From: Cephalotus follicularis
Lineage: Eukaryota; Streptophyta; Magnoliopsida; Oxalidales; Cephalotaceae
NCBI GenBank assembly: GCA_001972305.1
Contig: BDDD01000120.1
Span: 1 to 64,000 of the forward strand
Direction: 5' to 3'
DNA length: 64,000 bases
The position numbers and the translations under genes were made by a program. The notes under the pieces are model-generated. The model made no database searches and was not told where the DNA came from. It saw only the letters and a program-made list of their open reading frames with translations. The number at the start of each line of letters is the position of its first letter. Positions within the stretch are counted from its first letter, which is position 1. Below, one piece after another: positions 2,114-63,814 of this stretch.

Positions 2114-2288
2114 GTCGACGCTTTTATGTGTTAAACTTACAGTTGACGCTTTACGCTAACAAACCCGTCGACACTTTGTACCTTACTGTTTTGACTAATG
2201 ACGCTTTAACATTATGCGTCGACACTCAACACCAAACTGTCGGTGCTTAAGTGCTGAGCGTCGACACCCGGGGCTAAGCGTCGACGCT
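2114..2288 (+). promoter_or_regulatory. GTCGAC motif array in G 5' LTR
   Basis: About eight copies or near copies of GTCGAC. The last four cores start at 2218, 2239, 2260 and 2280, a spacing of 20-21 bp. The last copy is the exact 12-bp palindrome AGCGTCGACGCT (2277-2288). The array lies about 100 bp upstream of a TATA-like site, so an enhancer-type role is possible but not shown. Confidence 0.55.
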
Positions 2289-2395
2289 TAGTGCCCTGCT
2301 TTGCCAAAAATGATTGTCTTTACACCGTTTTTTATTTTAAATGGCTTATACCTTAAATGGACTCCATAGGAAGCCTCCCTAAGGCTTTGTGACCC

Positions 2396-2403
2396 ATATA
2401 AAT
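2396..2403 (+). promoter_or_regulatory. Candidate TATA box, G 5' LTR
   Basis: ATATAAAT lies downstream of the GTCGAC array and is conserved in the other LTR at about 7114-7121. It is a plausible core promoter, with no direct evidence of transcription start. Confidence 0.35.
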
Positions 2404-2573
2404 CCATCTTTAACTCTTGCATTATAAAAATAATGTTTCAAGGAAGGTGTTTTACGAAAAGTTTTCCCGTGAAAGAGTTTCCCAAAGAGTTTCATATAAC
2501 GGTTTTCAATAAATGGTCATGAGTGTTAGACTACACCATAAGAGGAACCCCACTTGATGGGAGGACCAATGGT

Positions 2574-2765
2574 ACCCCGCAAGTGTGGGAGGATAGATAT
2601 AAACTACAGTGGGACCCCAAAAATGTGGGAGGACCGACATCAAGTGCAATGGGACGGCACAAGTGCGGGACGACCAACGTCAATTGCAATGGGACCCCGG
2701 AAGTGCGGGAGGACCGACATGAATTACAATGGGACCCCATAGTTGCGGGCGGACCGATATGGATA
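2574..2765 (+). repeat. 40-bp minisatellite in G 5' LTR
   Basis: Almost five units of exactly 40 bp, each starting near ACCCC and containing GTGCGGGAGGACC and CAATGGG. The same array occurs in the 3' LTR at about 7264-7465, so it predates the insertion. Confidence 0.8.
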
Positions 2766-2931
2766 TCAGGTTATCTCGATACCTATGTATGATTATTGAC
2801 TGCTTACTGAGCGTCTGTAGGCTTATAGCCTTTGATATGTTATAGGACTAGCTGAGTATACCACTGCTTAGGGATAGTTGGTATATTGAAGCTGTCCGTA
2901 ATTGTCATACATGTATATGACATTACGTGAC

Positions 2932-3057
2932 ACATGGATACATATATGAAACATACTTGGCACATGTATATATATATGATACATACGTGGTACATGGTTA
3001 CATATATGATACATGGCACATGGATATATATATATATATATGGTACTTACATGGCAT
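2932..3057 (+). repeat. 30-bp minisatellite in G 5' LTR
   Basis: Four units of about 30 bp built on ACATGGATACATATATGA and CATAC, ending in a TA-rich stretch. The 3' LTR has the matching array at 7630-7749 with four regular 30-bp units. Confidence 0.75.
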
Positions 3058-4094
3058 ATAATATAGCTTTCAGTCATACGGATTGTTCAGCTACGGATAT
3101 GGTAAGATTATGAAATGGATATGGATCATAATGGTACGGATTGTGATGTTATATGGATATTGATTATGGCCGTAGCTAGAGAGACCAGTGTTAGAGAAGG
3201 TCCATCTTCTCTTCCTTGTTCTACTTATGAATGTTACTCTAGTCTGCCAGTAGAATGAGGAGCTCTGCTTAGGACGCTAAAAGTGCCTAGTCTATTACCT
3301 CAACAAGGAAAGCCGAGAAAAGCTTATATATGGTTTGAAGGACTTTGGAATGATACGGACGCCGAATGATAATGGAATTGTATTGGAATCGTATGGATAT
3401 GGTTATCAAATGATGACTACTATGGAACATGGCATGTTTATATATGCTAGTTTTCATAGCATGTGTTATATCGATTGTCATGTATACATCTCACATATTG
3501 TACACATATCTGTTGCACTTATATATGTTCCTTGCATATGTATATCCTACACAACCATCAGGTTGCTGATCCATTTCATTGTAGGTGACGTGCAGCAGTG
3601 ATCAGCCAGGCCAATCGCAGAGTAAAGATCTACATCTTCTCTGACCTATCTTGTATAAATATGGTTTTGTAAATGTACAAATGTTATATAAGAGACATGT
3701 TTTATATTCAGCTATTGACCTGTCGGCTTGTGGCGGTGCTTGATTTATATGTATGTTGATGTAAAGGATATGGATGGGTCCTGCTATTGTGATTATTCCT
3801 GTTTTCCTCATATGGAAGTGTGGATTGTTGAGGGCTGAGCCCATATTATAAATTGAGTTTTTCTTTACAGGAAGCATAGTCCGATAAACAAATTCTTGAT
3901 GCCCGATTTTTGGGAGATTATAAGAGTTAGTATATATATTCGATTTGATTATTCTGCTGATGTTATGGCTGTTTAAGTTTTAAATTTGTAGCACTTTTTG
4001 GAGTATGATTTATATGATATGAAAGGGTTGAAGGGACGGTATTTTACGCGTCGAGTCGTGGGGGTTTACTCTTATGGTTCGGGGCGTGACAGCT

Positions 4095-5271: not shown

Positions 5272-6831
5272 TGTAATGCCCGTAATTTCATAAATAATTA
5301 TTGCAATATTGGTACAGTGTATGCCCGTGATAAAGCCGATAGAGGCTCGGAGTAATAAAAGGCATTGCACATCTAAGCCTGAAATTCTAAGTCCCAAAAA
5401 TGGCTAATAAAGCCTATTTTTAATGCGCGACAGTAAGGCCCTATGTTCGCATTATCATTGAGATTATTTTAGTGGCGGTTGGATTAATTAATATTGCAAT
5501 GCGCTGAATAATCGAGACCCATGCCTTAGTATTTTCCTGGTAAATAACAAAGAGGAGGCAAAGATTAAAGGGAGAAAGAGATGAGACATGAGCGCATAAG
5601 GTGCCCGTGCAAAAGAAAAAAATAAAAGAAAAGAGACACGAGAGGGAGAGAACCAGTGGGAGAGAAAGGGAAAGAGTGAGAGAGCAGCGCGCCAGAGAAG
5701 AAATGAGAGATAGCGGCGCAAGGCACTGGACCAGGAAGAGATGGCGAGCTTCCAAGGACCTCAGCACGACGGTAACCCCTAACCTTTTCTTCTCTTTTCT
5801 CCCCGTTTTCTTCACTGGCATTTTTCGCCTGTCCCTGCTATTCCACCGTCGATAACACCATGGGTGGAGCTGGTTTTCACCCTGAGGACTGGCTATGCCC
5901 ATTTTGGTGACTGTTGGGGCGTATCTCGGCCAGAATTGGTCAGAATCAGTCTACTGAGTCAACTCAGCGAGTTCGACTCGATGCCACCTATGACCGCGCA
6001 ATTAGCGCCTAGTAACGGTGAGTCTCGGGCAGAGACGGGTAGAACTGATGGTTTTGTGACGTTTTGGGTGGTGACCGAAGTTGTTGACCGATGAGTCAAC
6101 TCAGTGAGTCGGACTCACTGCCGGCTGTGACCATACGATTCTACGCCGAGTCACGGTGGTTCTTGACACCAATGTATAGATCAGCCAATTTGGAGCCTAT
6201 TTATGCATGGCCGGAGTCCCGATGTGTTTGCTGGAATCTGGCTGGAGCTCCGGTGACAATAGTGTGTTACTACCTTTGTGCAGGGTGTAACGAATGTGTG
6301 CTGATTATTGCAGTGATACTAAGAGAGAGGGATCTCGTTGGCACAAGGAGCTGTGCTCGTGACAGTGAGTGAAGCATAGAGGAGGTGGCACTTCGTGGAT
6401 TCTGCTACAAGTCCTCCCAATCCCCATGCTCAATCGTTAACAGGTAGGGTATTCATATGCTCCGATGGTACGTACCCAGATGACTGTTGACTTGATCCCA
6501 TTCGTATATGCCGGTATGGTGCTGTAGTATACGAATGGTAGATCACTATAGTACGTTATACTACTTGCGATGTATTCATGCATTTGAATGGTTATATGGA
6601 TTATGATTGTGATTGATGGTGGTGTATATTACTTACAATGTATATATATATGATACTGTGATGGGTGGATTGTTATGGTATATGGTATATGGGTAAATGG
6701 TGAACAGAGACGAGATGAATTCCTACCTTCACTCAATTCACAGGCTATAGGATGGATTTCAAATGAATTGCAAACTGTTTTGCAAACTGGTATTTCTGTA
6801 AAAACCATCAATGCTTTCAATTTAACTGTCG

Positions 6832-7005
6832 ACGCTTTTATGTGTTAAACTTACAGTTGACGCTTTACGCTTTTAAACAAACCCGTCGACACTTTGTGCC
6901 TTACTGTTTTGACTAATGACACTTTAACTTTATGCGTCGACGCTCAACACCAAACTTTCGGCGCTTAACTTCTGAGTGTCGACAGCCGGGGCTAAGCGTC
7001 GACAC
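6832..7005 (+). promoter_or_regulatory. GTCGAC motif array in G 3' LTR
   Basis: Counterpart of 2114-2288, with GTCGACGC, GTTGACGC and GTCGACAC variants. It lies upstream of the TATA-like site at about 7114. Confidence 0.5.
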
Positions 7006-7263
7006 TTAGTGCCCTGCTTTGCCGAAAATGACTGTTTTTACACTGTTTTTTATTTTAAATGGCTTCTACCTTAAATGGACTCCATAGGAAGCCTCCCTAA
7101 GGCTTTGTGACCCATATAAATCCATCTTTAACACTTGGATTATAAAAATAAACTTTCAAGGAAGATGTTTTATGAAAAGTTTCCCCTGAAAGAGTTTCCC
7201 AAAGAGTTTCATATAACGGTTTTCAATGAATGGTCATGAGTGTTAGACTACACCATAAGAGGG

Positions 7264-7465
7264 ACCCCACTTCATGGGAGGACCAATTGGATCTACGTCA
7301 ATTACAATGGGACCCCGCAAGTGCGGGAGGACCGACATCAATTGCAATGGGATGGCCCAAGTGCGGGAGGACCGACATCAATTGCAATGGGATCCCGCAA
7401 GTGATGGAGGAACAACATGAATTACGATGGGACCCCACAGTTGCGGGTGGAGCGATATGGATGTC
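7264..7465 (+). repeat. 40-bp minisatellite in G 3' LTR
   Basis: Same family as 2574-2765 but with different internal substitutions and a divergent first unit. Confidence 0.75.
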
Positions 7466-7629
7466 AGGTTATCTCGATACCTATGTATGATTATTGACTG
7501 CTTACTGAGCATCTGTAGGCTTACAACCTTTGATATGTTATAGGACTAGCTGAGTATACCACTGCTTAGTGACAGTTGGTATATTGAAGCTGTCCGCAAT
7601 TGTCATTCATGTACATGACATTACATGAC

Positions 7630-7749
7630 ACATGGATACAGATATGAAACATACTTGGCACATGGATACATATATCATACATACATGGTACATGGATACA
7701 TATATGATACATACTTAGCACATGGATATATATATGGTACATACATGGC
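7630..7749 (+). repeat. 30-bp minisatellite in G 3' LTR
   Basis: Four consecutive 30-bp units beginning ACATGGATA. This is the clean version of the array at 2932-3057. Confidence 0.8.
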
Positions 7750-9119
7750 ATATAATATAGCTTTTCGTCATACACATTGTCCGGCTATGGATATGGCACG
7801 ATTATGGAAAGGATATGGATCGTAATGGTTACAATTGTGATGGTATATGGATATTGATGGTGGCCGTAGCTAGAGAGACCAATGTTAGAGAAGGTCCATC
7901 TTCACTTCCCTGTTCTACTTACGAATGTTACTCTAGTCTGCCAGTAGAATGAGGAGTTCTGCTTCGGATGCCAAGAGCGCCTAGTCTGTTATCTCGGCAA
8001 GGAAAGCCGAGAAAAGCATATATATGCTTGGAAGGACTTTGGAATGATACGAAAATGATAATGGAATTGTATTGGAATCGTATGGATATGGTTATCGAAT
8101 GGTGACTACTATGGAACATGGCATGTTTCTAAATGCTAGTTTTCATAGCATGGGTTATATCGGTTGTCATGCATGCATCTCACATATTGTACACATATTT
8201 GCTGCACTTCTATATGTTCCTTGCATATGTATATCCTACACAACCTTCGGGTTGCTGATCCATTTCATTGTACTGAAATGGATCAGGTTCAGGTCCAAGT
8301 GACGCACAGCAGTGAACAGCGGGGCCAATTGCAGAGTAAGAATCTACATCTCCTCTGACCTATCTTGTATAAATATGGTTCTGTAAATGTACAAATGTTA
8401 TATAAGAGACATGTTTTATATTCAACAATTGACCTGCCGGCCTATGGCAGTGCTTGATTTATATGTATGTTTATGTAAAGGATATGGATGGGTCCTGCTA
8501 TTGTGATTATTCCTATTTTCCTCCTACGAGAGTGTGGATTGTTGAGGGCTAAGCCCATGTTACAAATTGAGTTTTTCTTTACAGGGGGCATAGTCCAATA
8601 AACGAATACTTCATGCCCGATTTTCGGCTGATTATAAGAGTTAGTATTTATATTCGATTTGATTATTCCGCTGATGTTATGGCTTTTTAAGTTTTAAATT
8701 TATAGCACTTTTTGGAGTATGATTTATATGATATGAAAGGGTTGAAGGGACGGTAATTCATGCGTCGAGTCGTGGGAGTTTACTCTCACGGTTCTAAGCG
8801 TGACATAATAAATTTGAAATCAGTCATTTCCAAGTAATTTATAAGTTATAAAATACTTGATGTAGTACATTTATTCAAAATGTAATCAGTCTTTGAAACC
8901 ACGTTCAATCCTTGGAAAACATACATTTGGCAAAAAATACATTTTCGTGTAAAAATAATGATTTGTTATAAAATCATGTATGAACTTCTAAAGTGATAAA
9001 ACACTTTAGAAATCACTCATATTTCAATCACAATTCAATCCACAATTCAATCAATAATTCAATCCATAGCAATATGCAATGCAATCATATGCTCGAATAT
9101 GTAAAACAAGCTTATTCGC

Positions 9120-9477
9120 GTCAACGTGTTCCTCCCAGGCGTCAACACGTATATCAGTCCTCTTAGGCGTCGACGTGTAACTTACGCGTCAACGCGTATG
9201 ACAATCCTTCTGGGTGTCAACACATACCTCTCTAGCGTCAACATCCAATCCAGTCACTTAAGTGTCAGTGCTTCGTTCCTTTGCGTGGACGCTCTAAGGC
9301 AAAAGCCTTGGGTGTCAAAGTCTATCTCTTTTTGGTGTCGACACTATAAGATAAGAACCTTAAGTGTCATTGCCTTGCCTTTGGGCGTCAACATTACCTC
9401 ATGGCGTCGACGCTTAAAGCGTCTTCTTCCCTGTATAACAGGCCAAGGCGTCAACGTCTTCTCCCATAGGCGTCAAC
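9120..9477. promoter_or_regulatory. GCGTCRACGC motif array in LTR L
   Basis: About fifteen copies or near copies of GTCGAC/GTCAAC, most preceded by GC. Core starts include 9120, 9141, 9169, 9188, 9216, 9237, 9264, 9285 and 9387; spacing is mostly 19-23 or 27-29 bp. Most copies read GTCAAC, which fits decay of the central CpG. Confidence 0.55.
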
Positions 9478-10104
9478 GTTTATCGAACCAGAACAATGTG
9501 GAAATCGTATCAACGTCTCAAACTAGTAAGAATCATGCATAAAACACATGCAAATTAATCCATTTTCACTCCAAACAGATCATGCATGGCAGGTTAACCA
9601 TTTCCAGCAACCTAACAACATTCATACAATCCACAATCCATGCATTTCACTAAATGAACATTCACTATTTTTGAACTCAAAATACAATTATATAATCCCT
9701 ACCTTAGATTCCAAGTTAGAAATGGAAGTCCACATCTTTAAGCTAAGGTCTGTCGTAGCAGCTCCAAGTTCGAGCTTCCAACTCTCAAGCATTCAAGCTT
9801 TCGTCCGTCACAACAAGTGGAGAGCGTGGCTCTCTCCTTTGCTCTCTTTCTTTCTCTCTATTTCTCTCTATCAGGTGCTGCTCGAAGAAGGACAAGAAGA
9901 GAGTGCCTTATGGAGGAGTCTCTCTCTGTCATCTCACCCGCATTCATGGTGCCAAGCGCCTCTCTCTCTCCCCCTGCCGATGTGACACTCGCCAGTCCCA
10001 TCTCTCGCTTTCCTCTACCGCTGCAGGCACGGGAAACTGGTAAAGTTTCTCACACTTTACCTTCACGCATCTCCTGTCAGCGTTTTGTCCTATACTACCG
10101 ACAG

Positions 10105-10350
10105 TTTAGGCGTCAACGTTCACGATACGCGTCGACGCATTGACTATCTTCCTTAGCGCTAACAAGTTCCACAAACAACGTTAAAACCCATCCATTGGCG
10201 TTGACGCGTTCGGGCAAAGACCCTTAGTCGCACCTCACTTCTTGGCATCGATGCTATTTCATGGTGTCGACGCTTTAAGGCCAGAAACCTTAAGTGTAGT
10301 GTTCACCTCTTTGGCGTTAACGCCATTTCTTGGCGTCAATGCTCAACGCC
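10105..10350. promoter_or_regulatory. Second GTCAAC/GTCGAC cluster in LTR L
   Basis: Further copies such as GCGTCAACG, GCGTCGACGC, GTGTCGACGC and GCGTTAACGCC, on the other side of the CT-rich stretch. The layout matches the two clusters of the C LTR. Confidence 0.45.
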
Positions 10351-10504
10351 CTTTTTCTTGCATTTAAATCCAACACAACAATTTTAACATTCTTTACCTA
10401 GAATTTAAAACCATAAGTCAGAAAATCCATTATTCTCCTTAATTCATGATAGATTACATTGAGAATTTACATCAACACATATAGTGGAAATTTGGGACAT
10501 TACA

Positions 10505-15436: not shown

Positions 15437-15450
15437 AATATGGGGGTATT
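15437..15450 (+). other. Polypurine tract of element H
   Basis: AATATGGGGGTATT lies directly before the LTR start TGTTTAGCAT, the usual plus-strand primer position. Confidence 0.75.
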
Positions 15451-15658
15451 TGTTTAGCATAAAAATGTGTTATTTTTTATGATATAATTGTGATATTTTT
15501 ATGCTTGAAATGGACTACTTTGGTTGTGTTTATTTGATTTTCAGGTAAAAGGCCAAAAAGACCAAAGTGCAAAAATGCTACTCAAATTGACGTGAAGTGG
15601 AGACAAAAAGATCAAAGATTGAAATGTTGGAAAAAATCTGCAGAAAACAGAGTTAAGC

Positions 15659-15850
15659 GTCGACGCCTAGACTCAAACCGTCGACGTTTAGCTTTAAACC
15701 GCTACGCCAAACACTTCACGTCGACTCTTAGAGCCCTGGAATAACTCTTATAACCTTCTGTGTGAGACCGTCGACGCTTAACACTAAAGCGCGGAGCACA
15801 TCAATGCCAAAGTATCAAAGCGCCAACGCAAAACAGTCCAAACCGTCGAC
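15659..15850 (+). promoter_or_regulatory. Upstream GTCGAC cluster, H LTR
   Basis: GTCGAC cores at 15659, 15680, 15720, 15770 and 15845, with a decayed copy at about 15701, so the first four are about 20-21 bp apart. They end about 110 bp before the TATA-like site. Confidence 0.5.
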
Positions 15851-15962
15851 GGTTCAGATAGCTGATAGCAAATTTGGAAAGTTTTCACTTTTTAATTATT
15901 CCCTTAAAACAATTATAACTAGGTTAAACTTTTTCCTTTTCTTGTTTGCAAGGGATTTTGTG

Positions 15963-15970
15963 TATAAATA
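15963..15970 (+). promoter_or_regulatory. Candidate TATA box, H LTR
   Basis: TATAAATA follows GTG and lies about 0.5 kb into the LTR, between the two GTCGAC clusters. A plausible retrotransposon core promoter. Confidence 0.45.
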
Positions 15971-16247
15971 AGTCAGGATATGTCACAAAACAGAGTAGCC
16001 ACCTCATTCTTTTTCTTTAATTTTAGTTTTTATTTTACAATGTTTAATAGCTAAACTCTTAAGGTTTTTTGGGTTAGAACAAAGCGTAGATTGTATTGTT
16101 TCAATTCCATCAATAAAAATCCTTGAAGTTTTGATTTATTCTTCAATTTTCTGCCTTCGCACACACTTTGTCTGTCTGATTAAAATCCACAAACATTTTG
16201 TTGGTGAATAAGAACGTTGGCGAATAAATGGTTTTCAACCCGATCAA

Positions 16248-16402
16248 TGGAGTCTACTCATAAGGTTTGTCACACCGAACAAACTCCGTATAGACCTAGC
16301 ATGTCTACTCATACGATTTACCGCCGCTGCCGTACTCCGTATAGACCTAGCATGACTACTCATATGATTTGTCATCATACTCGCACTCCGTATCGACCTA
16401 GC
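16248..16402 (+). repeat. 51-bp tandem repeat in H LTR
   Basis: Three spaced copies of ACTCCGTATMGACCTAGC start at 16283, 16334 and 16385, exactly 51 bp apart. The CTACTCATA and TTTGTCA parts extend the array upstream by a partial unit. Confidence 0.8.
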
Positions 16403-16583
16403 TACCGTTGGTTATTAAGCTTTGATCGCTCAAGTAAGTGAATTGTTCAATATAATTTATGGTGAGTTTCTATACCCTAAAACCGACTTTTCCTTGCATA
16501 TTTCCTTCAGCTTACTTTCTGTTTTGCTAGTTTAATAAATTGTGTGCCTATTTCTTGTTAGTATTATTCCAGCCCACATAACT

Positions 16584-16711
16584 GTCGACGCTTCTCTCGA
16601 TAGCGTCGACGCTTTTTGTGTTATTTTTTAAGTTTACGTCGACGCCTTCTGTCGACGTTTTCATTGTTTCCAGTCATACTACCGTCGATGCCTTGACAAA
16701 GCGTCGACGCT
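16584..16711 (+). promoter_or_regulatory. Downstream GTCGAC cluster, H LTR
   Basis: GTCGAC cores at 16584, 16605, 16638, 16651 and 16703, and GTCGAT at 16684. Two copies are the exact palindrome AGCGTCGACGCT (16602-16613 and 16700-16711). Confidence 0.5.
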
Positions 16712-17095
16712 TTCTTGCCTGTTTTCAGTAATTTAGTTTATTTTTCATGTTTAAGAGTAGATTTTAATATTAGGCCTCAATTTTGCATGCTATGCCTAGG
16801 TTGAATAGAATAAAATTAATTTAACTTGATTTTCTAGTGTTCGACCCGTTACTGCACAACTGTGCACTTGTGGTATAAATTTAAAACATTCTTTTGACAT
16901 GAACACCTGCTCAAGATTGTATTAGATGGTTAAGGGGGGTTGAAACCCAAGTTTTCGAATCATGGTGATGGACTGATCAGATTTCAGGGCAGAGTTTGTA
17001 TTCCTAGTAGTAAGTTGCTGAAGGATGAGCTGTTGTCGTAGGCCCATCACTCCAGTCACTCAGTACATCCAGGAAGTACAAAGATGTATTGAGAC

Positions 17096-20965: not shown

Positions 20966-21888
20966 TGTAACACCCCCGATTCAGAACCGGGATCACTCCC
21001 GATTCAGGATCTGTGTGTCACAAAAAACTATGCTAAAAACATGTCAAAAATCTTAATCTTTTCATCATCAATACATGGTGGTTCTAAAATATGAAAACAT
21101 GCATAATCCTTAACATAAACTCCAATATCAAAAATTTTGTTCATAACACCGGTCAACATATGATCATAATACAATTATTATTCAAATGAAAAAATCAAAC
21201 TCCTAAGTGATCCTCTGACATAGGGTAACTCTCTCATCACACTTTCCCCAGAAGCTCCTGATAACCTGCCGCACGGAAAACAAAAACGCGGCTGAGCAAA
21301 CCTCAGTATGGATATAGAATCATAAAACAGTTTACGAACAAAACAGAACAGTTACGAATCAAAACAGAACAGTTACGAAGCAAAACAGAACAGAAAAGGT
21401 ATCTGGAATTTTAAATCAGAAACCTCATGTATAAAATAATTTAACATTATTTCATAAGGCAAAAGAGAGAATATTCATATAAAAAATTGTAACAATTCAA
21501 AATAAATATCCGAGGTTCAAAGCATTATCTGAATTTCAAAGCAAAATCCAAATTTCAAAACAATATACGAAAGCAATACCCGGAATTTCAAAGAAATATC
21601 CGAGTTTCATAATCTGAATTCAAAATATCATACATTATCCAATTTCATAATTCCATACAGAGATCCAATGCACATATATATATATAAGTGCAAGGGGTTC
21701 ATGACGCCCACATGCTCCGACGGAAAGACGTGTACGGCACTACACAATCAATCCCAAATCTGAATATGAATCTGATAATAACTAGAGTCGACCCATTCGC
21801 CTCAAATGGATCCATACCCTACCCTCAGGATGTATATAAAAAGAGACGTCGTAGACCGATCACACCGCCACGGTAGGTGTCATGTCCT
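20966..21888 (-). repeat. B copy 1 LTR, first part
   Basis: Matches 52198-52473 plus 61027-61665 of copy 2. Interrupted at 21889 by copia F; the LTR resumes at about 32086. Confidence 0.8.
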
Positions 21889-24090
21889 TGATGGAATCGG
21901 ATTAACCAATTCCTATGCCATAAATGGACTAAGGTATGTAGAGTGTAGAACAATACTTAAACATACAATCATGGCAGCAGAAGAACACCCAACAAAGGCA
22001 AAAATAGTCCATTATGGCATGACCACAGGCCACATGGATCACCACATCAATACTTTGATTGAAAAGATGTCACCACTGCAATCAATGGTGATAAACAAGC
22101 AAGGAAATAAGAGAAGGACCAAGAGATATAAGAACGGTGATGGCTCCTTCGTCTTTGCCGCTTCAAGCTTGAGAAGACTCCCTCAAATGCTTCCTAAGCC
22201 TTTTGCTTCTACTCCGATTCGAAGCCCAACTGCTCCAAGCACCAAGACACAAGAACAGTTTCTGTTCTTTAGAAAACTAACATAAAAAGACTCTCTCCCT
22301 CTAAGAAAATCTCACAAAGGATGCATTGGCAATGACAAGGGATGTTAATGTCAATCCACCCTAAACAAGCTCTTGCTTGGTGGATATGAAAGATGGGAAC
22401 TTGTGCAATCTCCAGAGAGAACGAATTCAATTGTGCAGCAATTTTTCTACCTATCTTCATAAAACAAAAAATTTTCATAATAATGCATTCACAAGCCCAC
22501 TCTCCCACTCTCCCATAAACATGGGATCATGGTCCTCACCCCCAGGGAGTCTGTAGCCATGTTCCCCATGTTCCTAAAACATGATAGATAGGAGAAAACT
22601 ACTGGAGATGAGAGAGAAAACGTGCCCACGAAGTGAGTTCGTGCAATGGTTGCACAACCCACTCTAAGCGTCGACGCTTTCAACAACAACGTTGACGCTT
22701 AAGCATTACATGTCACTAAACGTTGACGTTTTTTCTAAAAGTCATGAATGCCTCTGTGAGCCTTAAGCATCGACGCTTTGTCTAAAGAAATGCGTCGACG
22801 CTTTGACTGGTTTATGAAGCAAATAGAGCATAAGTCCAACTTATTTAATCCCTTCTAATATTGATTAAGTGTGATCAAACAAATGTGTTTCCACAAAATG
22901 TATAATCCAAATAACCGATATTTCACACCAAGACTTAATATGTCCAACATATAAAACATCTAATCATTATTGGGCAGGGACCCTATAAAATCTTGGTTAA
23001 AATCGGAGGTGTTCATAAATTACCGAAATACCCCTAGGGTCTGGTTTAGCCGTTCTAAATGGTCCTTGACAAATTTAAATGCTATCGTAATAATATCTAA
23101 TATTATCCAGATGGAAAAATTAATCTAATTAATTTTCCCATAATTTATTATACACCTCATTACCCCTAGATTTTCTAGGTCTTCGGTTCACATGTACTGT
23201 AATCTCTCGTCATGCTTGGCCCCGATTGAGGTCTAGGGTAAGGATATGTGTCAACTCTATATAATACCTCAATGGCTAAAATATCCGATCATTACTAGGA
23301 CCTTTGGTAAACTCTCCGGAAATCTAATTTCCAGTATACCTCAACCTTGGCCAAGGATTTCATAAGTCTAAAGTATAATCAGATCATAATAGAGCCGATC
23401 ACCTTCGCCCAGGTGTAATAATCCCATATTGCGTGCTCACTTATATTCGTATAGATTCGATCATACCCAAAGACCACCTGATTGCCAGCCCTGCACAAGG
23501 ACTGGGTAAGGTGAAGATCAAAGCATAACCGTCTCCATACAATATAGAGCAGTCACTCAGGTCTAAGGATCAGACGAATTTTAGAACTCGCTAAGTGATC
23601 ATCACTTTTACACAACGGCAATAAGTAGGAGTCACTACTGACACGAGAATAGCGACTATCCAAATATTGTCTCCTACGCGGGTACAGTTCAGTGTACACG
23701 CTCCCAGCGTGCACCCCGTATTTGCCCTAGTGTCCAACACAGATGGTAGTGAGAGAATCCATCCTCCAATTCAATGAGCAGGCAACATACGCGTAAGTCT
23801 ATCCAATTAACTAATGCCCACAAAGTGAACCTATGACTTGGAACTAATTTTACATAAGGAATAAGGTAACCAATCTCACAGCCTCCATGCTAGGCATCCA
23901 ACCTTATGTCAGGGCATCACAAGAGTAAGCAGGTAAATAATAAACTACTTCAATGAAGTGATAAAACACAAGTGATATAGCCATAACAAAGTAGCATGCA
24001 TCATATATATAAGCAATAAGATTGATTCATACAAGAATAGATATAAAACGACCGTCCATCCAATCGCTTGTCGGGTCACTACATTAAACA
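21889..24090 (-). repeat. 3' LTR of copia F
   Basis: Starts TGATGGAAT and ends ACATTAAACA on the plus strand. Contains GTCGAC motifs at 22670-22799, including the exact palindrome AGCGTCGACGCT at 22667-22678. Confidence 0.85.
22667..22802. promoter_or_regulatory. GTCGAC cluster, F left LTR
   Basis: GTCGAC or GTTGAC cores at 22670, 22691, 22722 and 22794, plus ATCGAC near 22769. The first two are 21 bp apart. The right LTR has the same cluster at 30663-30795. Confidence 0.5.
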
Positions 24091-43810: not shown

Positions 43811-43814
43811 TGTT

Positions 43815-44652
43815 AGAAGAATAAGGATGCCGAAACCATAACTAAAACCATCTCTAGCAACCAATGTACAAAAGTTTTGATAGCAACAATCCAAAAACCA
43901 ATCGCCAAGACATAACAATATAGGAAACCAACCTGTTAGATGTTACAACAGTTGCAGGAATACCAATTGAATGACACAGTGGCTGATTACAAAGGAAAAA
44001 CGAGAGGAAGACATCAAAATTTCAAGCCTTCCAACAATACCAACATTGCAAAAACGATTCCTACATTGAAGCCACGAAGAACTAACCTGATTAATGAAGC
44101 AAAAACACCAAGAACACAATGACTCTTCCAATGGCAGGTTCAGCAGCAAGGAGATATGGCAGAAACGAAGACTTTGACATACATATATAGCAAAATAATC
44201 CAAAACGGAAAAGAAGAGGAGATTGGGGAAAGAATAAGGAAACAATGAGACAAAATCATATTGATAAGGAAGGAGAGGATTATTACCGTGTAAAAGTTAT
44301 GAAGGAAGGAGAAAATTCGGGAGAGAGAGTTTGAGAGGGAGAGAGATGTCGTGAGAGGGAGAGTTTGAGAGAAAATAAAAAAAAAAGGAAATAAAGAAAA
44401 AGGAAAAAAATAAAGAAAAGGAAAGAAATAAATTAAAATGTGGTATTTTTAAAAAGGTTTTTAGATTATTTGATTAGTGGAATAACAATAATACAACTAA
44501 TTAACCCAAGCCCAAAGTCCATACTAACAAACCCAAAATTATGGCTGGTATCAGTCAGCCCAAAACATAAACCCAACATAAAACGGACAAATACATAAAC
44601 GAAACAAATAAAACCCGTAAGAAAAATACGTACAGGTAAGCAGGGTATTACA
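43815..44652 (-). repeat. 3' LTR of element D (part)
   Basis: Ends GGGTATTACA at 44652, followed by a reversed polypurine tract (TCCACCCCCCCTAAAGAG). It corresponds to the last part of the longer copy at about 49340-51519. Confidence 0.75.
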
Positions 44653-49339: not shown

Positions 49340-51519
49340 AACATATCAGAAACACATAGTAGCAAGGGGTTCGCGACACCCACATTGCCAAATGGAATTG
49401 CAGTGTACGGCACTACATATACAATTCCCATATCCCAAAACATATCCCAATAACATATAACTAGGATCGATCCATACGCCTCTATCCTAAATCATATCTA
49501 AGGATATCCCTGAGAGACGCCGTAAACAAATCACACCATTACGGAAAGTGTCATGCCCCCGTGCCAGGCTCACAGCATGCCTATGTTACCCCCATAGGTG
49601 GTTATAAATAGCTCAGTATTTCACCATTTCAAAAACTATGATTTCATCAAATCATTTTAAAATACATAGAAAGATTTCCCAAACATAATCATAAATCGTT
49701 CTCAAACGATGTAAACACATGCTTTCATAATCGGAAAAATCAACTCATTTAATTTCATAATAAAGAGATGATTGCATAATACATCATAACTGATTTCATA
49801 AAGTCAGAATATTTACTTCATAAAATATCAAATGACTTTATTTCCAAAAACCCAAATATACGGAATTCATAAACCAAAAGGAAGCATATTCATAAAACTG
49901 AGTGATAACAAAACCAGAATCTGTATTTAACCTCAAACAGAACTGAAACAGTAAGAATGTGTCAAGGAACGAAGATCCGTACCTTGTGCGATCACAGATA
50001 AGCTTACGAATAACTGATAATTTAAAGGTCCCACGTAGCACAACAATCTATACAATACGAAAACATTCATATAACGGTCTAAAATTCATTTTGAGCATAA
50101 AACAGAATCATAATGATGTTTACGATAGACCTGGATCATCAGAAGAATAAACGGATGAAAACAGAAGTTTACAGGACAAACCAGCCAACTGTTTCAAAAA
50201 TCCAGTCGACTAACAAGGAGTGGCAGTCGACTACACAACAGGGCCAGTCGACTACTCAACCCAAACTGCAGGCAGTCGACTGAATCAGGGGTCCAGTCAA
50301 CTACTCAACAAAAGACAGTCGACTGTTTGCACAATGCAGTCGACTACTCAAACTAGACAGTCGACTTGTTCATACGGGCAGTCGACTGTTCTGGGTATCA
50401 GAACAGCAGTTCAGTGCGATTTGTGCAATTTTAGCAACCAAGACTTGGATTTTTTGACATTAGAAGGTTACCAACATGCAAAACAACTTCGTATGACATG
50501 TAAAACATTTTTACAACACAGAATTCGAAAAAGGCATGTTGACAGAAAATTTCTTCAATGTGACAGGGACTTTAAACCATGGAATACCAATACTCAATTC
50601 AATTCTATCCACTTATCATGTTTACATGCATCAAAGCCAGTTTATATAACTCTTCCTAGATGTCTACAGATGACTGCTAACGCATAATTACTTGACAGAA
50701 GAATAAGGATGCCGAAACAATAACTAAAATCATCTCTAGCAACCAATGTACAAAAGTTTTGATAGCAACAATCCAAAAACCAATCGCCAAGACATAGCAA
50801 TATAGGAAACCAACCTGTTAGATGTCACAACAGTTGCAGGAATACCAATTGAATGACACAGTGGCTGATCACAAAGGAAAAACGAGAGGAAGACATCAAA
50901 ATTTCAAGCCTTCCAACAATACCAACATTGCAAAAACGATTCCTACATTGAAGCCATGAAGAACTAACCTGATTAATGAAGCAAAAACACCAAGAACACA
51001 ATGACTCTTCCAATGGCAGGTTCAGCAGCAAGGAGATATGGCAGAAACGAAGACTTTGACATACATATATAGCAAAATAATCCAAAACGGAAAAGAAGAG
51101 GATATTGGGGAAAGAATAAGGAAACAATGAGACAAAATCATATTGATAAGGAAGGAGAGGATTATTGCCGTGTAAAAGTTATGAAGGAAGGAGAGAATTT
51201 GGGAGAGAGAGTTTGAGAGGGAGAGAGATGTCGTGAGAGAGAGAGGGAGAGTTTGAGTGAAAATAAAAAAAAAAGGAAATAAAGAAAAAGGAAAAAAATA
51301 AAGAAAAGGAAAGAAATAAATTAAAATGTGGTATTTTTAAAAATGTTTTTAGATTATTTGATTAGTGGAATAATAATAATATAACTAATTTACCCAAGCC
51401 CAAAGTCCATACTAACAAACCCAAAACCAAAACATAAACCCAACATAAAACGGACAAATACATAAACGAAACAAATAAAACCCGTAAGAAAAATACGTAC
51501 AGGTAAGCAGGGTATTACA
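49340..51519 (-). repeat. 5' LTR of element D (part)
   Basis: From about 49350 (GCAAGGGGTTCGCGACACC) the sequence follows the B LTR (about 21690-21885 and 32090-32760), so B and D LTRs are homologous. Includes the GATCCGTACC landmark (49973), the GTCGAC array (50203-50388) and the part repeated at 43815-44652. The priming site is not seen. Confidence 0.65.
50203..50388. promoter_or_regulatory. Phased CAGTCGACT array in D LTR
   Basis: CAGTCGAC starts at 50203, 50224, 50245, 50273, 50316, 50337, 50358 and 50379, with CAGTCAAC at 50294. Spacings are 21, 21, 28, 21, 22, 21, 21 and 21 bp. The sequence between cores is not conserved. This is the cleanest array in the window. Two turns of B-DNA are about 21 bp, so dimeric proteins could bind one face; this is inference. 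Confidence 0.65.
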
Positions 51520-51779: not shown

Positions 51780-52197
51780 TCTCCACCCCATTGAAAGAAG
51801 ATTTTGTCCCAAAATCTAAAAGCACTACTAACCATCAACTTCCAAACCTTACTTCGAAATCATGCATCTCGATCGAAAGAAAATCCAACTCTCGAAATTT
51901 CATCATTCAACATAATAGTGCAATTCAAAAAATACTCCAACATAACGAAACACAAAGTCTTACGGTTGTCAGAATAAGGAAACCCAAGACAGAACCTTAA
52001 GCATCTGTAGTCTGCCTCATACATGCCATCTACAAAAAAGAACCGGAACATGACAAAATGAAAGGAAACAGAAAACTTAAACAAAGACATACCGAAATGA
52101 CCATTAGGAAAAAGCACAAACCCGATTTCTACCCATCTCACAGGTCAAATCTAGATAGGCTTGTAACGAATCAAAACCTATTCTCTGATACCATAAC
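51780..52197 (-). other. 418-bp internal region of B copy 2
   Basis: Starts TCTCCACCCCATTGAAAG (reversed polypurine tract) and ends with a reversed priming site (52181-52193). Matches 34924-35339 throughout. No gene. Confidence 0.75.
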
Positions 52198-52473: not shown

Positions 52474-52759
52474 TGTCACACCCCGTTCCCGTTAAGACAG
52501 TATTAAAGCGGTAAAAGCAATCAATATAACGTTATCCAGCTTATACAAATATGATAAAATTAAAAACTTCAATTCCATTCACATGTGCGGAAGCATTTGA
52601 TAACAAGCTAGATTCATATCAAATAATGATTTATATAAAATCACGTACACATTTCTAAAATGAATAAAAACACTTTAGAATCAATCACATTCCAATCACC
52701 AATTCATTTCATATCAAATGCGATGCAAAGATATGCTCAAGTACGGGTTAGTCCCTAAC

Positions 52760-53068
52760 CAGTCGGCTGTCTCCTCATGACAGTCGGCTGTCTTCCGTTG
52801 ACAGCTGGCTGTCCCAGCTCTGGCAGTCGGTTGCCTCCCTTAACAGTCGGCTGTCTCCTATTGACAGTCGGCTGCTTCCTCATCCAGTCGGCTACCCTCT
52901 CTTGGCAGTCGACTACTCAACCTTCTGCAGGTATGTTCTTTTAAACGTATGAACAGTCGACTGGTTCTTACGTCCAGTCGGCTGTTTCCTATTGAGTAGC
53001 CGGCTGTTCGCACTGAGCAGTCGGCTGGTCTAGCTCGCCAGTCGGCTGCCCGCCTTGGCAGTCGACTG
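52760..53068. promoter_or_regulatory. Phased CAGTCGGCTG array in C LTR
   Basis: Cores start at 52760, 52781, 52802, 52824, 52844, 52865, 52885, 52906, 52954, 52975, 52997, 53018, 53039 and 53059. Spacing is 20-22 bp throughout apart from one gap of 48, near which a decayed copy may lie. The 10-bp core is CAGTCGGCTG or CAGTCGACTG; the 10-12 bp between cores vary. The right LTR has the same array (59898-60206). Confidence 0.65.
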
Positions 53069-53608
53069 GATTTATACCAGCAGGCAAAAACAGCAGAAAA
53101 ATGCATGTCTTTCACACTTCAATCCAACCAAACACGAGCATTCAACAACAATAACATACATTTATGCTCATAATACAGTCCATAGCATGCATTTCGTCCA
53201 TTAACTTCCATTATAACGGAACTTAAAGAACAATTATGAAATTTACCCCTACCTTAGAATTCCAAGTTAGGAATTGCAATCCACCTCTTTAAGTTCCAAT
53301 ATGAGTTTCCAAGCCTCCGAATTCGTCCGGCAACTCCACAAAATCTGGTTCGAGCTCCAAGCCCAGATTCCAAGCTCAAAATTGGAGAGATACAACTTCT
53401 CTCTCTCTTTTCTCTCCACTGTCCTCTCCCTCTTCACAACTCTCTATCTCTTTGAATTTACTGATGAGAGGAGAGGAGAAAGTGTGTTTTTATTGCCATT
53501 TTTGTGTCTCTATCTTCACAAGCCGACACTATCACCGATTTTGTCTTCTCCCCCTTTCTATCTGCAAAATGAGACTGCCAACACGTTTTTAACTGACACA
53601 TCTCATGG

Positions 53609-53738
53609 GAGTCGACTGCCTTATCTTTGAAGTCGGCTGCCTCTGTAGACACCATCCCCAGCCGGTTGTCTCTCACAACAATCGGCTGGTTCCTCTCAAA
53701 GGGGGTCCAGTCGACTATCCTTCCTGGGTCGTCGGCTG
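53609..53738. promoter_or_regulatory. Second CAGTCGRCTG cluster in C LTR
   Basis: Cores at 53609, 53630, 53659, 53679, 53708 and 53729; spacings 21, 29, 20, 29 and 21. It lies on the other side of the CT-rich stretch. Counterpart in the right LTR at about 60746-60880. Confidence 0.5.
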
Positions 53739-53929
53739 CCCGCCCTGCATCAGCACCTTCCACACTTCAACTTTTGCCCAAGTTTAACATTACAAAAAGG
53801 GAAAAGTCATAATTCTCATTAATTTAATTGCATAAATGCATCGGAAAATACAACATTACATTAATGAAAATCTCGGGTGTTACATCCACCCATCCTTCAA
53901 GGAATTTCATCCTCGAAATTAAAACAACA

Positions 53930-56249: not shown

Positions 56250-56273
56250 TACTACAAACTGATCCAGGTACGG

Positions 56274-58681: not shown

Positions 58682-58685
58682 CTGC

Positions 58686-61021
58686 TGTCACACCCCGTTC
58701 CCGTTAAGACAGTATTAAAGCGGTAAAGGCAATCAATATAACGTTATCCAGCTTATACAAATATGATAAAATTAAAAACTTCAATTCCATTCACATGTGC
58801 GGAAGCATTTGATAACAAGCTAGATAACAAACCGAATCATGCGTCCCATACACCATGATTCCAACATTTAACACAATTGAGCCATCGTCGATTGCCCATA
58901 AACGGGGTGTGATCAAAAGTCGATCAACACCATTAATACATTAATCCAAAATAATACGGGTCGCAATACATTGTTAAAACATTTATTTAAACAATAAAAC
59001 TCCATCTCCCCACAAATTCACCGCGAACGGCCGATATCCACATCACTGCATCAATCTGCAATAGTAGGGGGTTAGCCTTTGTCCTCACTCCGCTAAATCA
59101 TAAGTGTAATTCAAGGTCAGTGATAATGAATGTCATGAAATGAATGCACTCATGATACAATATATAACATATCGCCACACGTATATATACATATGTATAT
59201 ATATATATATATGCCAATAGGTGCAACCATGCTAAGTGGCCACCATATCAAATCACCATCATGCCTCGAGGGCTGTCAAATCAAATTAGTTCAAATTAAA
59301 TAAAATCGAATCAAGCCACTGTCTCAAAGGACAATCAAATCACTGTACGAAGAGCGCCGCCATCTCCTGGACCCGACGTCGTACTCTTACTTCGGCCCCC
59401 GACTCACGGGTCACGAAGCAAGGCAACAAATCAGACTCATGAAGCTCGCACTCTGTGTTCAGCAATCATGGTCCCCCGTGTTACTTGCACTCTGTGTTTA
59501 GTAACATTATATTTGGGAGTCCCTAGCCACCTCCTGGCACCTAGGAGAACATCCCCGCCACCAGCCATCAGTGACACTCCGTCACCCCAGCCAGTACGGC
59601 ATCAATCACAATCAACAAATCAAATAAATTCAAATCGTTTCCAAGTATTTCATAAAGTACTGGAAATAATACATTTATAATAAAATGTATTGCATCTTTG
59701 AGACCATGTTTCAATCCGTTGAAAACATACATTTATCAAAATATATATTTTCATATCAAATAATGATTTATATAAAATCACGTACACATTTCTAAAATGA
59801 ATAAAAACACTTTAGAATCAATCACATTCCAATCACCAATTCATTTCATATCAAATGCAATGCAAAGATATGCTCAAGTACGGGTAAGTCCCTAACCAGT
59901 CGGCTGTCTCCTCATGACAGTAGGCTGTCTTCCATTGACAGCTGGATGTCCCAGCTCTGGCAGTCGGATGCCTCCCTTAAAAGTCAGATGTCTCCTATTG
60001 ACAGTCGGCTGCTTCCTCATCCAGTCGGCTACCCTCTCTTGGCAGTAGACTACTCAACCTTCTAAAGGTATGTTCTATTAAACGTATGAACAGTCGACTG
60101 GTTCTTACGTCCAGTCGGCTATTTCCTAATGAGTAGCCGGCTGTTCGCACTGAAAAGACGGCTGATCTAGCTCGCCAGTCGGATGCCCGCCTTGGCAGTC
60201 GACTAGATTTATACCAGTAGGCAAAAACAGCAGAAAAATGCATGTCTTTCACACTTCAATCCAACCAAACACAAGCATTCAACAGCAATAACATACATTT
60301 ATGCTCATAATAAAGTCCATAGCATGCATTTCGTCCATTAACTTCCATTATAACGGAACTTAAAGAACAATTATGAAATTTACCCCTACCTTAGAATTCC
60401 AAGTTAGGAATTGCGATCCACCTCTTTAAGTTCCAATCTGAGTTTCCAAGCCTCCGAATTCGTCCGGCAACTCCACCAAATCTGGTTCGAGCTCCAAGCC
60501 CAGATTCCAAGCTCAAAATTGGAGAGATACAACTTCTCTCCCTCTTTTCTCTCCACTGTCCTCTCCCTCTTCACAACTCTCTATCTCTTCGAATTTACTG
60601 ATGAGAGGATAAGAGAAAGTGTGTTTTTATTGCCATTTTCATGTCTCTCTCTTCGCAAGCCGACACTATCACCAATTTTATCTTCTCCCCCTTTCTCTAT
60701 GCCAAATGAGACTGCCAACACGTTTTTAACTGACACATCTCATGGCAGTCGACTGCTTTATCTTGGAAGTCAGCTGTCTCTGCCGACACCATCCCCAGCC
60801 GGCTGTCTCTCACAACAGTCAACTGGTTCCTCTCAAAGGGGGTCCAGTCGACTGTCCTTCCTGGGTAGTTGGATGCCCGCCCTACATCAGCACCTTCCAC
60901 ACTTCAACTTTTGCCCAAGTTTAACATTACAAAAAGGGAAAAGTCATAATTCTCATTAATTTAATAGCATAAATGCATCGGAAAATACAACATTACATTA
61001 ATGAAAATCTTGGGCGTTACA
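58686..61021 (-). repeat. 5' LTR of element C
   Basis: 2336 bp, TGTCACACCCC to GGCGTTACA. It contains a stretch not present in the left copy (about 58830-59750), with a TA-rich microsatellite (about 59181-59212). Confidence 0.85.
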
Positions 61022-61026
61022 TCACA

Positions 61027-63814
61027 CTTGCCCCGGGAGCTCCTGATAACCTGCCTCATGGAAAACAAAAACGCGGCTGAGCAAACCTCAGTACGGATAT
61101 AAGAATCTTAAAACAGTTTACGAACAAAACAGAACAGTTACGAATCAAAACAGAACAGTTACAAAGCAAAACAGAACAGAAAAGGTATCTGAAATTTTAA
61201 ATCAGAAATCTCACGTATAAAACAATTTAACATTATTTCACAAGGCAACAAAGAATATTCTTATAAAACAATTGTAAAAATTCAAAATAAATATCCGAGG
61301 TTCAAAGCATTATCTGAATTTCAAAGCAAAATCAAAATTTCAAAACAATATGCGAAAGCAATACCCGAAATTTCAAAGCAATATCCGAGTTTCATAATCT
61401 GAATTCAATATATAAATTATCCAATTTCATAATTCCATACAGAGATCCAATGTACATATATATATAAGTGCAAAGGGTTCATGACACCCACATGCTCCGA
61501 CAAAAACACGTGTACGGCACTACACAATAAATCCCAAATCTGAATATGAATATGATAATAACTAGAGTCGACTCATTCGCCTCAAATGGATCCATACCCT
61601 ACCCTTAGGATATATATAAAAGAGACATCATAGACCGATCACACCGCCACGGTAGGTGTCATGTCTTCAGTGCAAAAGAACATGTCTATGAGACCTCATA
61701 GGTAAGTTTTTCTCTATATGTTATTAGGCTAAAACATTGTTTTATTCTAAAACAATTTAAAAACAGATTTTCTAAACAATTTCTGAACATATCTGAAATC
61801 ATAACCATATATGTATCTGAAAGTTAACATACTTTCGATGGTGAAAGTCATGTCCATTTAACATATTTTCGATAGTGAAAACCATGCACAGAATATAAAA
61901 TCAGAAAATATTAAACTTAGTAATAAAACAGATTTCATTCAATAAAGCCACATATTTGGCAACGGAAAAGTCCATTTCAACACAAACAAAGAATAGCCAA
62001 GAATAAGAATATCCGTACATTAATCATAAAAATGAAACTGATTTGTTTCAATAATATCATATCAACATAGCCAAAGAACGATAGTATCCATACCATATTC
62101 GTAAAAGTAAAACTAAATTCATTTCAATAAAATCAGTAGGAAGGTGTCAAGGATGAATATCCGTACATCTCATTAAAACAAAACAGATTCAATTCAGATA
62201 AAACCGAATGATAAGAAAAACGAAGAATCCGTATTTTATTCACAAAATAAAACTGAATTATACTCAGATAAAATCGATAAGAGTGTATCAAGAAACGAAG
62301 ATCCGTACCTCATGCAATCACCAAAGTAACCTTAAGAACATATCAACAAATCCCTAGACTAATCCTCAGCTGATACCAATATCTAAAAGAATTTAAAACG
62401 ATTCACTTCAGAAATTAGAATTCTTTACGAAAGCATTGACGCTTTCCTACATAAAAAGGCCGAGAGCGTCGACGCTTAAAAGTTATAAACGAAACTATAG
62501 TGTCAAAGCGTCGACACTGTGTGAATTAGATAATCAGGGAAGAGTTTAGAGACGGCATCAACAACTTATTCAAATTGATAGACAACATTACTATAGAGAT
62601 ATTTACCAGAAACATCAGAAGACTAAAGAGCAGTAGTTGCGCCTTGCCACATCCTTAACACGCAAAACCCCCAACCAATGACATTACTGGGTGTCTTTTG
62701 ATCCCATCAATAATTGCTACATACAGCACAGCTTGCATTTAAACCACTTTGTAAGAGTGTGCCCAGGCACGTAGTTGGATGAACAGCCACAATATCCACC
62801 CCATGCTGCTCTGTAAATTCCCATGCTACTCTCACACCCTGCACGACATTTCTGCCCGTTTGTTGTACAGATATGCCCATTGCTGCACTGAAGTCCGTAC
62901 ATATCTTGTATAAAAGATCAACACCCATATCAGAAATCTCCATATACCACTTCATGCTCAAATACTCCAGCCCAAAAATCACTGACGCCTAAACATTTAT
63001 ACACCTTCAGCTCTCTCAATCCCAATCCATACTATATCACAAACACCTCTCTGTCTCCAACCCATAGCAGAACAACACATTGACACCCTCCAGACACAGA
63101 CATGCATGTTTACCATCTCCAACCAGTAGCCATTAACAAATTCACCACGCCAATCACAAAACCCATACCAGCGATCAAAACCACAAGCACACAGACATGA
63201 CCACAGAGCCACAAACTTGCCATACCAGTATCCATGTCACGGCCACTATTCTCAACCAAGACACACTATTACCAACCCCTAACCAAAATGCACATCCCCA
63301 CAATCCCAGCGCCCCAACCGCATCCTTAATCAACAAACATTAAACCCAGCAAGAACAACACACCATCACTAACCTCACTAAAATGAACCAAGCCCAACAC
63401 TCCAATGTCGCCTTGAGATTTCCGAATCGAAGCCATTTTCTCCCTTCATACACATAGTGTTTTATACAGGGAAAATATGAGCACACTCAGATGGGCAAGA
63501 GAGATAACAAACAATGCTACACCACCGCCAGTAGTAGAAACCATGTTGAACCACCTGAAAAATGGTGTATAACTGTGGGAGGAACGCAAGAAAATTTTGG
63601 AGCTATATGCAATGGCGGTCCAGGGCGTGAGAGACGAAGAAGAGAGATAAAAAAAAGAAGAAAGAAAGGTGGTGACTTAAGCACAGCAAAATGCATGAGG
63701 GAGATAAGATTGGGAGAGAAAAAGGAAGGTCAGAGACATGCATGAGAGAGATATACAAAAGACGGAGATTTGACGCCGGAGGTAGATTGGAATTGAGAGA
63801 GAGACGATGCAGAG
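61027..63814 (-). repeat. B copy 2 LTR, second part
   Basis: Continues the LTR after element C. It matches 21240-21885 and then 32086-34595 of copy 1 without copia F or the solo LTR. Holds a GTCGAC cluster (62430-62520, exact palindrome at 62465-62476), the captured gene piece and a GA-rich region (about 63600-63800). Confidence 0.8.
62636..62870 (-). pseudogene. Captured cinnamoyl-CoA reductase-like gene fragment, B copy 2
   Basis: Within a 91-codon open stretch (62707-62982) the minus strand reads AWEFTEQHGVDIVAVHPTTC, then LGTLLQSGLNASCAV. The DNA continues with codons for GSKDTQ, CHWLGV and RVKDVA in another frame. In plant cinnamoyl-CoA reductase-like enzymes the order is AWEF...HGVDVVAIHP...LGPLLQP.LNASCAV...GSKDTQ...HWLGAVHVKDVA, so about 75 residues are covered. 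Catalytic YxxxK and the N-terminal Rossmann GxxGxxG are not in the piece. Not likely functional. Confidence 0.65.

Follow-up and report, generated by a model that had tools for sequence, protein, structure and literature searches.

Arrays of GTCGAC-centred palindromic boxes in copia and gypsy-type long terminal repeats of Cephalotus follicularis

Why should one 12-bp palindrome, AGCGTCGACGCT, recur in the long terminal repeats (LTRs) of both copia and gypsy-type retroelements? The question is raised by positions 1 to 64,000 of Cephalotus follicularis contig BDDD01000120.1 (assembly GCA_001972305.1); this whole stretch of 64,000 nucleotides is referred to below as the window. A sequence-only reading of it had claimed eight exact sites, and all eight were located: at 2277 in an LTR of a gypsy-like remnant (G), at 16602 and 16700 in the LTR of a gypsy-type element (H), at 22667, 29471 and 30663 in a copia element (F; one site in each LTR and one in the leader), and at 32886 and 62465 in two LTR copies of an apparently non-autonomous element (B). 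G, H, F and B are the carriers of the exact 12-mer. The claim that this is far above chance was likewise borne out, as the reversed 12-mer, our control in genome-wide counts, scales to approximately 0.0015 per 64 kb. When up to two mismatches to AGCGTCGACGCT were allowed, the window held 37 matches against 0.44 expected from dinucleotide shuffles, and none of 100 shuffles reached 37; 36 of the matches lie within the arrays described below, and the remaining one is at 54343. In the whole assembly (1.577 Gb in 9,746 contigs, including the window), AGCGTCGACGCT occurs at 28,659 sites compared with 37 for the reversed word, and another palindrome centred on GTCGAC, CAGTCGACTG, occurs at 197,377 sites compared with 939; here and in all pooled statistics below, family copies are not independent. 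We also pooled the window, an unbiased, contiguous 200-kb sample from the start of contig 1 and 20 stretches picked for holding AGCGTCGACGCT. Exact sites had been said to sit among variants, and 37 of the 39 in this pooled set have a further box (up to three mismatches) within 60 bp, compared with approximately 0.016 per 120 bp for the reversed control. The palindrome observation is confirmed, and it is larger than first noted.

The boxes are of two types. Those of D1 and D2, which are gypsy elements according to their Pfam domains and pol comparison, read CAGTCGACTG or CAGTCGGCTG and are called C-type here; the type to which AGCGTCGACGCT belongs is called A-type. A-type boxes are carried by the LTRs and leader of the copia element F and by LTRs of gypsy-type or non-autonomous elements, and C-type boxes were seen in gypsy-type elements only. 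We took 25 segments of the window and ranked all their palindromic 10-mers with at least four G+C, using eight simulated sequences for each segment. A GTCGAC-centred word ranked first in the G LTR (z 8.6), the partial LTR K (17.0), the H LTR (17.7), the F 3′ LTR (5.5), the F internal region (7.3), the B LTR (4.9), the D1 leader (10.5) and the D2 5′ LTR (14.8). It tied for first in the second B copy (5.5), was second in the D2 3′ LTR (15.7, where CAGCCGGCTG leads with 20.8), and was third in the F 5′ LTR (6.8, compared with 10.1 for GCATCGATGC). GTCGAC was absent from the three top-ranking words in the D1 LTRs, in a further copia element (I) and in the coding parts of D1, D2, H and I.

The unbiased 200-kb sample contained four exact 12-mers. 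Among its palindromic 10-mers with at least four G+C, CAGTCGACTG (60 copies, 0.09 expected) and GCGTCGACGC (12 copies, 0.01 expected) led, and the next by score had three copies. Overlapping intervals holding at least four copies of a palindrome were of A or C type in 30 of 33 cases, and one Markov-simulated 200-kb sequence had none. The three exceptional intervals, of 400 bp each at about 18200, 106600 and 174200, contain five copies each of GAGTTAACTC, ACATCGATGT and ACAGTACTGT, which are possibly further box types. The sample held 12 A-type and 24 C-type clusters, and none of the 36 midpoints fell within polyprotein matches, which cover 17.4% of it. Detectable LTR pairs make up 22.6% of the sample and hold 12 of the 24 C-type clusters (p=0.003). 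A scan of viral contigs for box pairs returned none, and a similar scan of a general genome contig collection returned 47 prokaryote stretches.

In both types the typical distance from box to box is about 21 bp, which corresponds to two turns of DNA. Exact A-box pairs 12–41 bp apart number 4,316 genome-wide, compared with 7 for the reversed control, and 40 of the first 50 listed are 19–22 bp apart (p ~3e-26 against a flat spread, with family copies counted as if independent). Gaps of 20–22 bp account for 45 of 129 A-type and 131 of 182 C-type gaps in the pooled sample. Long gaps in the larger sample are moderately periodic, with the best period at ~10.25 bp for A (R 0.31) and ~11–11.25 bp for C (R 0.55). 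Information in the window arrays is restricted to about 12 bp. In 222 A-type sites the unscored positions ±7 are A in 78% and T in 80%, compared with 47% and 51% at ±8; this symmetry at positions that had not been scored indicates that the A site is at least AAGCGTCGACGCTT.

Palindromes arrayed in this manner could act as RNA, the boxes pairing into hairpins for packaging or dimerisation or for the production of small RNAs, and in eight of nine sense arrays the folding energy is indeed clearly lower than in dinucleotide-shuffled sequences (z −2.7 to −6.3, compared with −1.6 in the ninth array). In addition, LTR palindromes of maize Sireviruses are described as hotspots of small-RNA mapping within a highly variable region (PMC5311732). 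However, any palindrome array would fold so, and the sense boxes of D2 (CAGCCGACTG) contain a C-A mismatch. Compensating changes across the dyad were not found beyond one of 24 pair tests with p=0.02, the others giving p>0.1; the half-sites vary singly, which fits a dimeric protein better than an RNA stem. Because covariation is lacking, we do not prefer an RNA hairpin role and regard it as quite improbable.

The regular spacing could also be the product of a mutational or tandem-repeat process yielding 21-bp minisatellites that are palindromic by accident, and Tandem Repeats Finder does report tandem repeats of 21 bp in both D1 and D2. The spacers bear on this directly. For A-type boxes about 21 bp apart, spacers are no more alike between neighbours (33%, 68 neighbour pairs) than between different clusters (33%), and C-type spacers show a slight excess (33% between neighbours, 27% between clusters; 167 pairs). 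The boxes themselves are 75% alike between neighbours and 72% between clusters for A, and 79% and 73% for C, a likeness for which the search threshold and site choice are partly responsible. Moreover, one such process would not settle on the same pair of palindromes in LTRs that are unrelated. The minisatellite reading is therefore disfavoured, and we find it scarcely credible.

Substitutions that arose after insertion were scored by comparing one LTR copy with the other in G, F and B. Within boxes 11 of 70 CpG letters had changed, compared with 106 of 351 elsewhere (p=0.013), a difference to which site choice may contribute; other letters changed in 4 of 114 and 418 of 5,706 cases (p=0.14). 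D2 was excluded from this pool after its result had been seen, because all 20 substitutions in one of its arrays (array a) read A in one copy. In the alignment of 52749–53068 with 59886–60205, the second copy has A at all 20 positions (8 from C, 7 from G and 5 from T), and outside this array the substitutions have no A bias, a pattern suggestive of an error in assembly or polishing.

Do the boxes descend from one LTR? The sequence-only reading had judged it unlikely that a common LTR lies behind both copia and gypsy. In a blastn comparison of the LTR parts of the window, F, G, B and H share the boxes alone at the arrays; the sole match at the arrays, between the F leader and H, is 30 bp long and made of boxes, and the B–H matches away from the arrays derive from an H-like fragment within B. 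The absence of a shared flank at the arrays means that descent from a common LTR across the superfamilies is not supported. Linkage of 73 clusters by their flanks, with boxes masked and single linkage that may over-merge, gave seven groups: a large gypsy-type group (27 A-type and 28 C-type clusters, including B and D1), G, F (copia), one more A-type group, one C-type group and two A-type singles; loci L074, L075 and L080, which have no cluster of three boxes within 75 bp, stood outside it. A looser, differently masked linkage gave nine groups, with B and D1 split from the large one. Given that no link between these groups was detected, the A box is common to groups that are alike in nothing else, copia included. 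One ancestral box-bearing LTR behind all families, of which everything but the boxes has diverged, would account for the many gypsy-type frames that are recognisably homologous. It would not account for the F and G groups, which have no flank link to the others, nor for the copia element I, which is related to F and has GTCGAC as single sites without an array; we consider such an ancestor very improbable. Copia and gypsy LTRs are not known to share an ancestor at such depth.

The large group has homologous LTR frames, and its arrays are therefore not independent gains. The frames of K and of the D2 LTRs are homologous on both sides of the arrays, yet the box types differ. Probes made from the flanking blocks found nine loci, eight of which have both blocks: five carry only A-type boxes, two (the D2 LTRs) only C-type and one (L087) both. 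These counts hold at the cut-offs used, and one of the five A-only loci needed three mismatches. In a second frame, both blocks were present in four of nine loci, with A boxes in two and C boxes in two. At L087:1508–2000, A-type and C-type arrays are adjacent within one LTR frame, and over 300 bp, spacers included, the C array matches that of D2 at 74%, which indicates that those two arrays share descent. Different box types inside homologous frames require spread or replacement alongside independent gain; since the frame trees have 40–67% support at the key nodes, we claim replacement but not a number of switches. The earlier proposal of convergence on a host factor, or else spread of the motif, thus holds in part: the F and G groups lack a flank link, as convergence would have it, whereas the homologous frames of the large group do not represent independent gains.

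These same frames could mean that the arrays are neutral passengers, spread by recombination or by template switching between co-packaged retroelement RNAs, so that their similarity stems from exchange. The occurrence of either array type within homologous frames, the two types in L087 with the D2-like C array, and the slightly greater likeness of neighbouring C spacers all agree with exchange. A spacers show no such likeness, however, and transfer between copia and gypsy elements would need co-packaging and is marked by no flank similarity. As an explanation of the arrays, neutral exchange seems to us unlikely.

The explanation that we favour, with somewhat better than even confidence, is that the boxes are putative cooperative sites for one or more dimeric host DNA-binding factors, gained repeatedly and rearranged between LTRs. 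A symmetric nuclear factor of the host, or a few factors related to one another, would recognise the GTCGAC-centred palindrome, with AAGCGTCGACGCTT as the type A word and CAGTCGRCTG as the type C word. Boxes about two helical turns apart would allow several dimers to sit side by side on the LTR or leader, and the bound dimers might activate the element's transcription or set its timing. Lineages of both copia and gypsy would have gained the site independently because they inhabit the same nucleus, and in gypsy-type frames the arrays would have been replaced or exchanged while the frame was retained. We infer protein binding, the dimeric state, the transcriptional effect and convergence from direct observations: the sequence, symmetry, spacing and abundance of the sites, their presence in both superfamilies, and the different arrays in homologous frames. 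An AP2/CBF-type protein is one candidate factor only, suggested by analogy because the PLACE database gives GTCGAC as the preferred site of HvCBF2, an AP2 protein.

Several results weigh against the host-factor explanation. In coding parts, unrelated palindromes attain z values of up to 6.3; the F 3′ LTR (5.5) and B (4.9 and 5.5) are therefore supported by the exact word and not by the ranking test. Most K boxes are asymmetric (GTCAAC) and most D2 boxes read GTCGGC, and these would not all suit one factor. The position of the arrays within LTRs is variable, and no TATA box could be placed with confidence in the LTRs that carry them. Taken alone, the window gives no significant helical phasing for A-type boxes (p 0.14–0.19), and C-type gaps of about 28 and 49 bp misfit whole turns of 10.5 bp. 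D2 boxes do not show lower CpG change (7 of 40, compared with 10 of 54), and their non-CpG change is higher (15 of 160, compared with 28 of 1,020) in an array with the odd error pattern noted above. Finally, detectable LTR pairs of the 200-kb sample were enriched for C-type clusters but not for A-type clusters, of which they hold 3 of 12 (p=0.53). The flanks of several A clusters outside such pairs align to LTRs of the window, and these clusters may represent solo or broken LTRs.

The carriers differ in the number and position of their boxes, with 17 units in K, 12 in H, 20 in D2, 10 in the D1 leader, 7 in G, 5 per LTR and 5 in the leader of F, and 4 per LTR in B. The G LTR (1898–4091, plus strand) is followed by a primer-binding-site (PBS)-like sequence, TGGTATCAGAGC, at 4095; its second copy (6615–8803) is 88.5% identical, and the interval between the two holds a remnant of a gypsy pol that is only weakly matched (38% identity, E 7e-6). 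The seven boxes of its A-type array (2090–2288), of which that at 2277 is exact, begin and end about 190 and 390 bp from the LTR start, and the second LTR has the counterpart at 6825–7006. Both G LTRs contain a 40-bp tandem repeat (2567–2757 and 7298–7455) apart from the boxes. K (8806–10403, minus strand, ends approximate) carries variant forms of the A box, mostly GGCGTCAACG, in arrays at 9117–9483 (mostly GGCGTCAACG or GGCGTCGACG) and 10109–10343. The H LTR (15449–16950, plus strand, end approximate) has copies elsewhere in the genome; a polypurine-tract (PPT)-like run and its TGTTTAGC start were placed by eye, and upstream lies a gypsy-type pol with protease (PR), RNaseH and integrase (INT) domains (Pfam) that resembles that of D1. 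Its A-type arrays are at 15656–15853 (array 1) and 16581–16711 (array 2), the latter holding both exact sites. Six other copies of the H frame have five to nine A-type boxes each and no C-type boxes; two lack array 2 or lose alignment there, and L091 aligns across array 1 and L072 across array 2. The copies thus disagree, and we make no claim that the H arrays are hypervariable gaps.

F is a copia element by Pfam RVT_2 and a copia gag between its LTRs (3′ LTR 21888–24090, minus strand; 5′ LTR 29875–32080; 92% identical), with a PBS-like site at 29862–29873. Its A-type arrays lie in the 3′ LTR (22667–22802), in the leader on the inside of the 5′ LTR (29404–29553) and in the 5′ LTR (30663–30793), each with one exact site. 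From the positions of PBS-like sites and LTR starts, we read B as non-autonomous, its long LTRs enclosing an internal region of about 400 bp; its arrays are at 32853–32949 (copy 1) and 62432–62518 (copy 2). B-type LTRs apparently stand in an LTR-internal-LTR-internal-LTR row over 20966–63807, with internal regions of about 400 bp, PBS-like sites at 35324–35335 and 52182–52193, and interruptions by other insertions. The H-like LTR fragment in B copy 1 (33982–34332, about 350 bp) has no arrays and is absent from copy 2.

In D1 the C-type array (50202–50387; CAGTCGACTG with a 21-bp period) lies in the leader, before the gypsy gag. The D1 LTR at 43808–44652 is preceded by a PPT-like run (43797–43808) and followed by a PBS-like site; the LTR at 50690–51519 has no adjoining PBS-like site (50660–50690). 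The closest relatives of the D1 pol among named, full-length entries (best 120 of 7,947) are Asteraceae and Apiaceae proteins at 76–78% identity, and no relatives were found in viral contigs. The D2 3′ LTR (52474–53884, minus strand) carries C-type array a (52760–53070; 14 CAGTCGRCTG boxes, mostly 20–22 bp apart) and array b (53609–53738), with copies at 59897–60207 and 60746–60855 in the 5′ LTR (58686–61023). About 925 bp of the 5′ LTR (58825–59750) have no counterpart in the 3′ LTR, and the end of this segment aligns to the start of K.

Arrays of palindromes in LTRs are known. Sirevirus LTRs have palindromic repeated motifs (RM boxes) upstream of the promoter, for which a regulatory role was proposed (Bousios et al. 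2010, PMC2829016). RM boxes resemble those described here in that many short palindromes are clustered in LTRs; theirs start 200–400 bp into the LTR, ahead of a conserved TATA box. The RM of Vitis, CGGTCGACCG, shares the GTCGAC core, and that of Tnd-1 is palindromic over 12 bp. In contrast, RM boxes are there Sirevirus-specific among the Ty1/copia elements compared and have a CGG-CCG core, whereas the boxes in the window have a GTCGAC core (GTCGGC is common in D2, but the full CAGCCGGCTG is rare) and belong mostly to gypsy-type elements (D1, D2 and H) as well as to copia (F). Unlike RM boxes, moreover, one exact box is found in both superfamilies, and different box types in homologous frames. 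At least eight copies per element are required of an RM (PMC2829016); K, H, D2 and the D1 leader reach this number, and G, F and B do not clearly do so. In position, the G array, array 1 of H and array b of D2 lie roughly within the RM range, and the arrays of F and B and array a of D2 are deeper. The maize Sirevirus LTRs mentioned above likewise have a palindrome-rich variable region, with complex palindromes and small-RNA data there and short boxes here (PMC5311732).

Repeated gain of a host-factor site has also been described by Pietzenuk et al. (2016, PMC5059998) for COPIA elements, in which the heat-response element (HRE) of ONSEN and others was acquired repeatedly. The likeness is that separate retroelement families came by one host-factor site independently and more than once; the HRE, with its motif nGAAn/nTTCn, belongs to HSFA2 and COPIA, whereas our boxes are GTCGAC-centred, show no nTTCnnGAAn, and have a candidate factor and carriers in two superfamilies. 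According to PLACE, GTCGAC is the preferred HvCBF2 site (CRTDREHVCBF2) and RYCGAC (CBFHV) is recognised by barley CBF1/2 (PMC4222965, PMC4482647). The A and C consensus sequences contain this C-repeat/dehydration-responsive element core, as does GTCGGC of D2 (GCCGAC on the other strand), but GTCAAC of K is a misfit. The boxes agree in having the GTCGAC core, on both strands, and differ in being longer (10–14 bp with symmetric flanks). Among the matches listed from open-licence literature, which excludes most subscription papers, there was no report of the box or of a palindrome shared by copia and gypsy elements. The exact 12-mer appeared inside a printed Taxus MYC gene sequence and across a sequencing primer, and no title on LTR motifs was among the matches listed for the exact palindromes. 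What is new is the cross-superfamily box together with the different arrays in homologous frames.

One could envisage, as a speculation that is probably wrong, that the words AAGCGTCGACGCTT and CAGTCGRCTG compete, with LTR elements adopting one, losing it and regaining the other in situ. This would be expected if a host regulator, or a host silencing factor that reads one of the words, repeatedly changed sides, and the genome would then record an arms race in swappable palindromic arrays. The observations themselves extend RM-like boxes, called Sirevirus-specific among copia elements in 2010, to gypsy elements, and the more than 220,000 exact sites of the two words provide raw material. If the boxes are host-factor sites, many retroelements of this genome would depend on one or two proteins; they would constitute a case of convergent cis-regulation across superfamilies, and identification of the factor would name a regulator of transposon activity.

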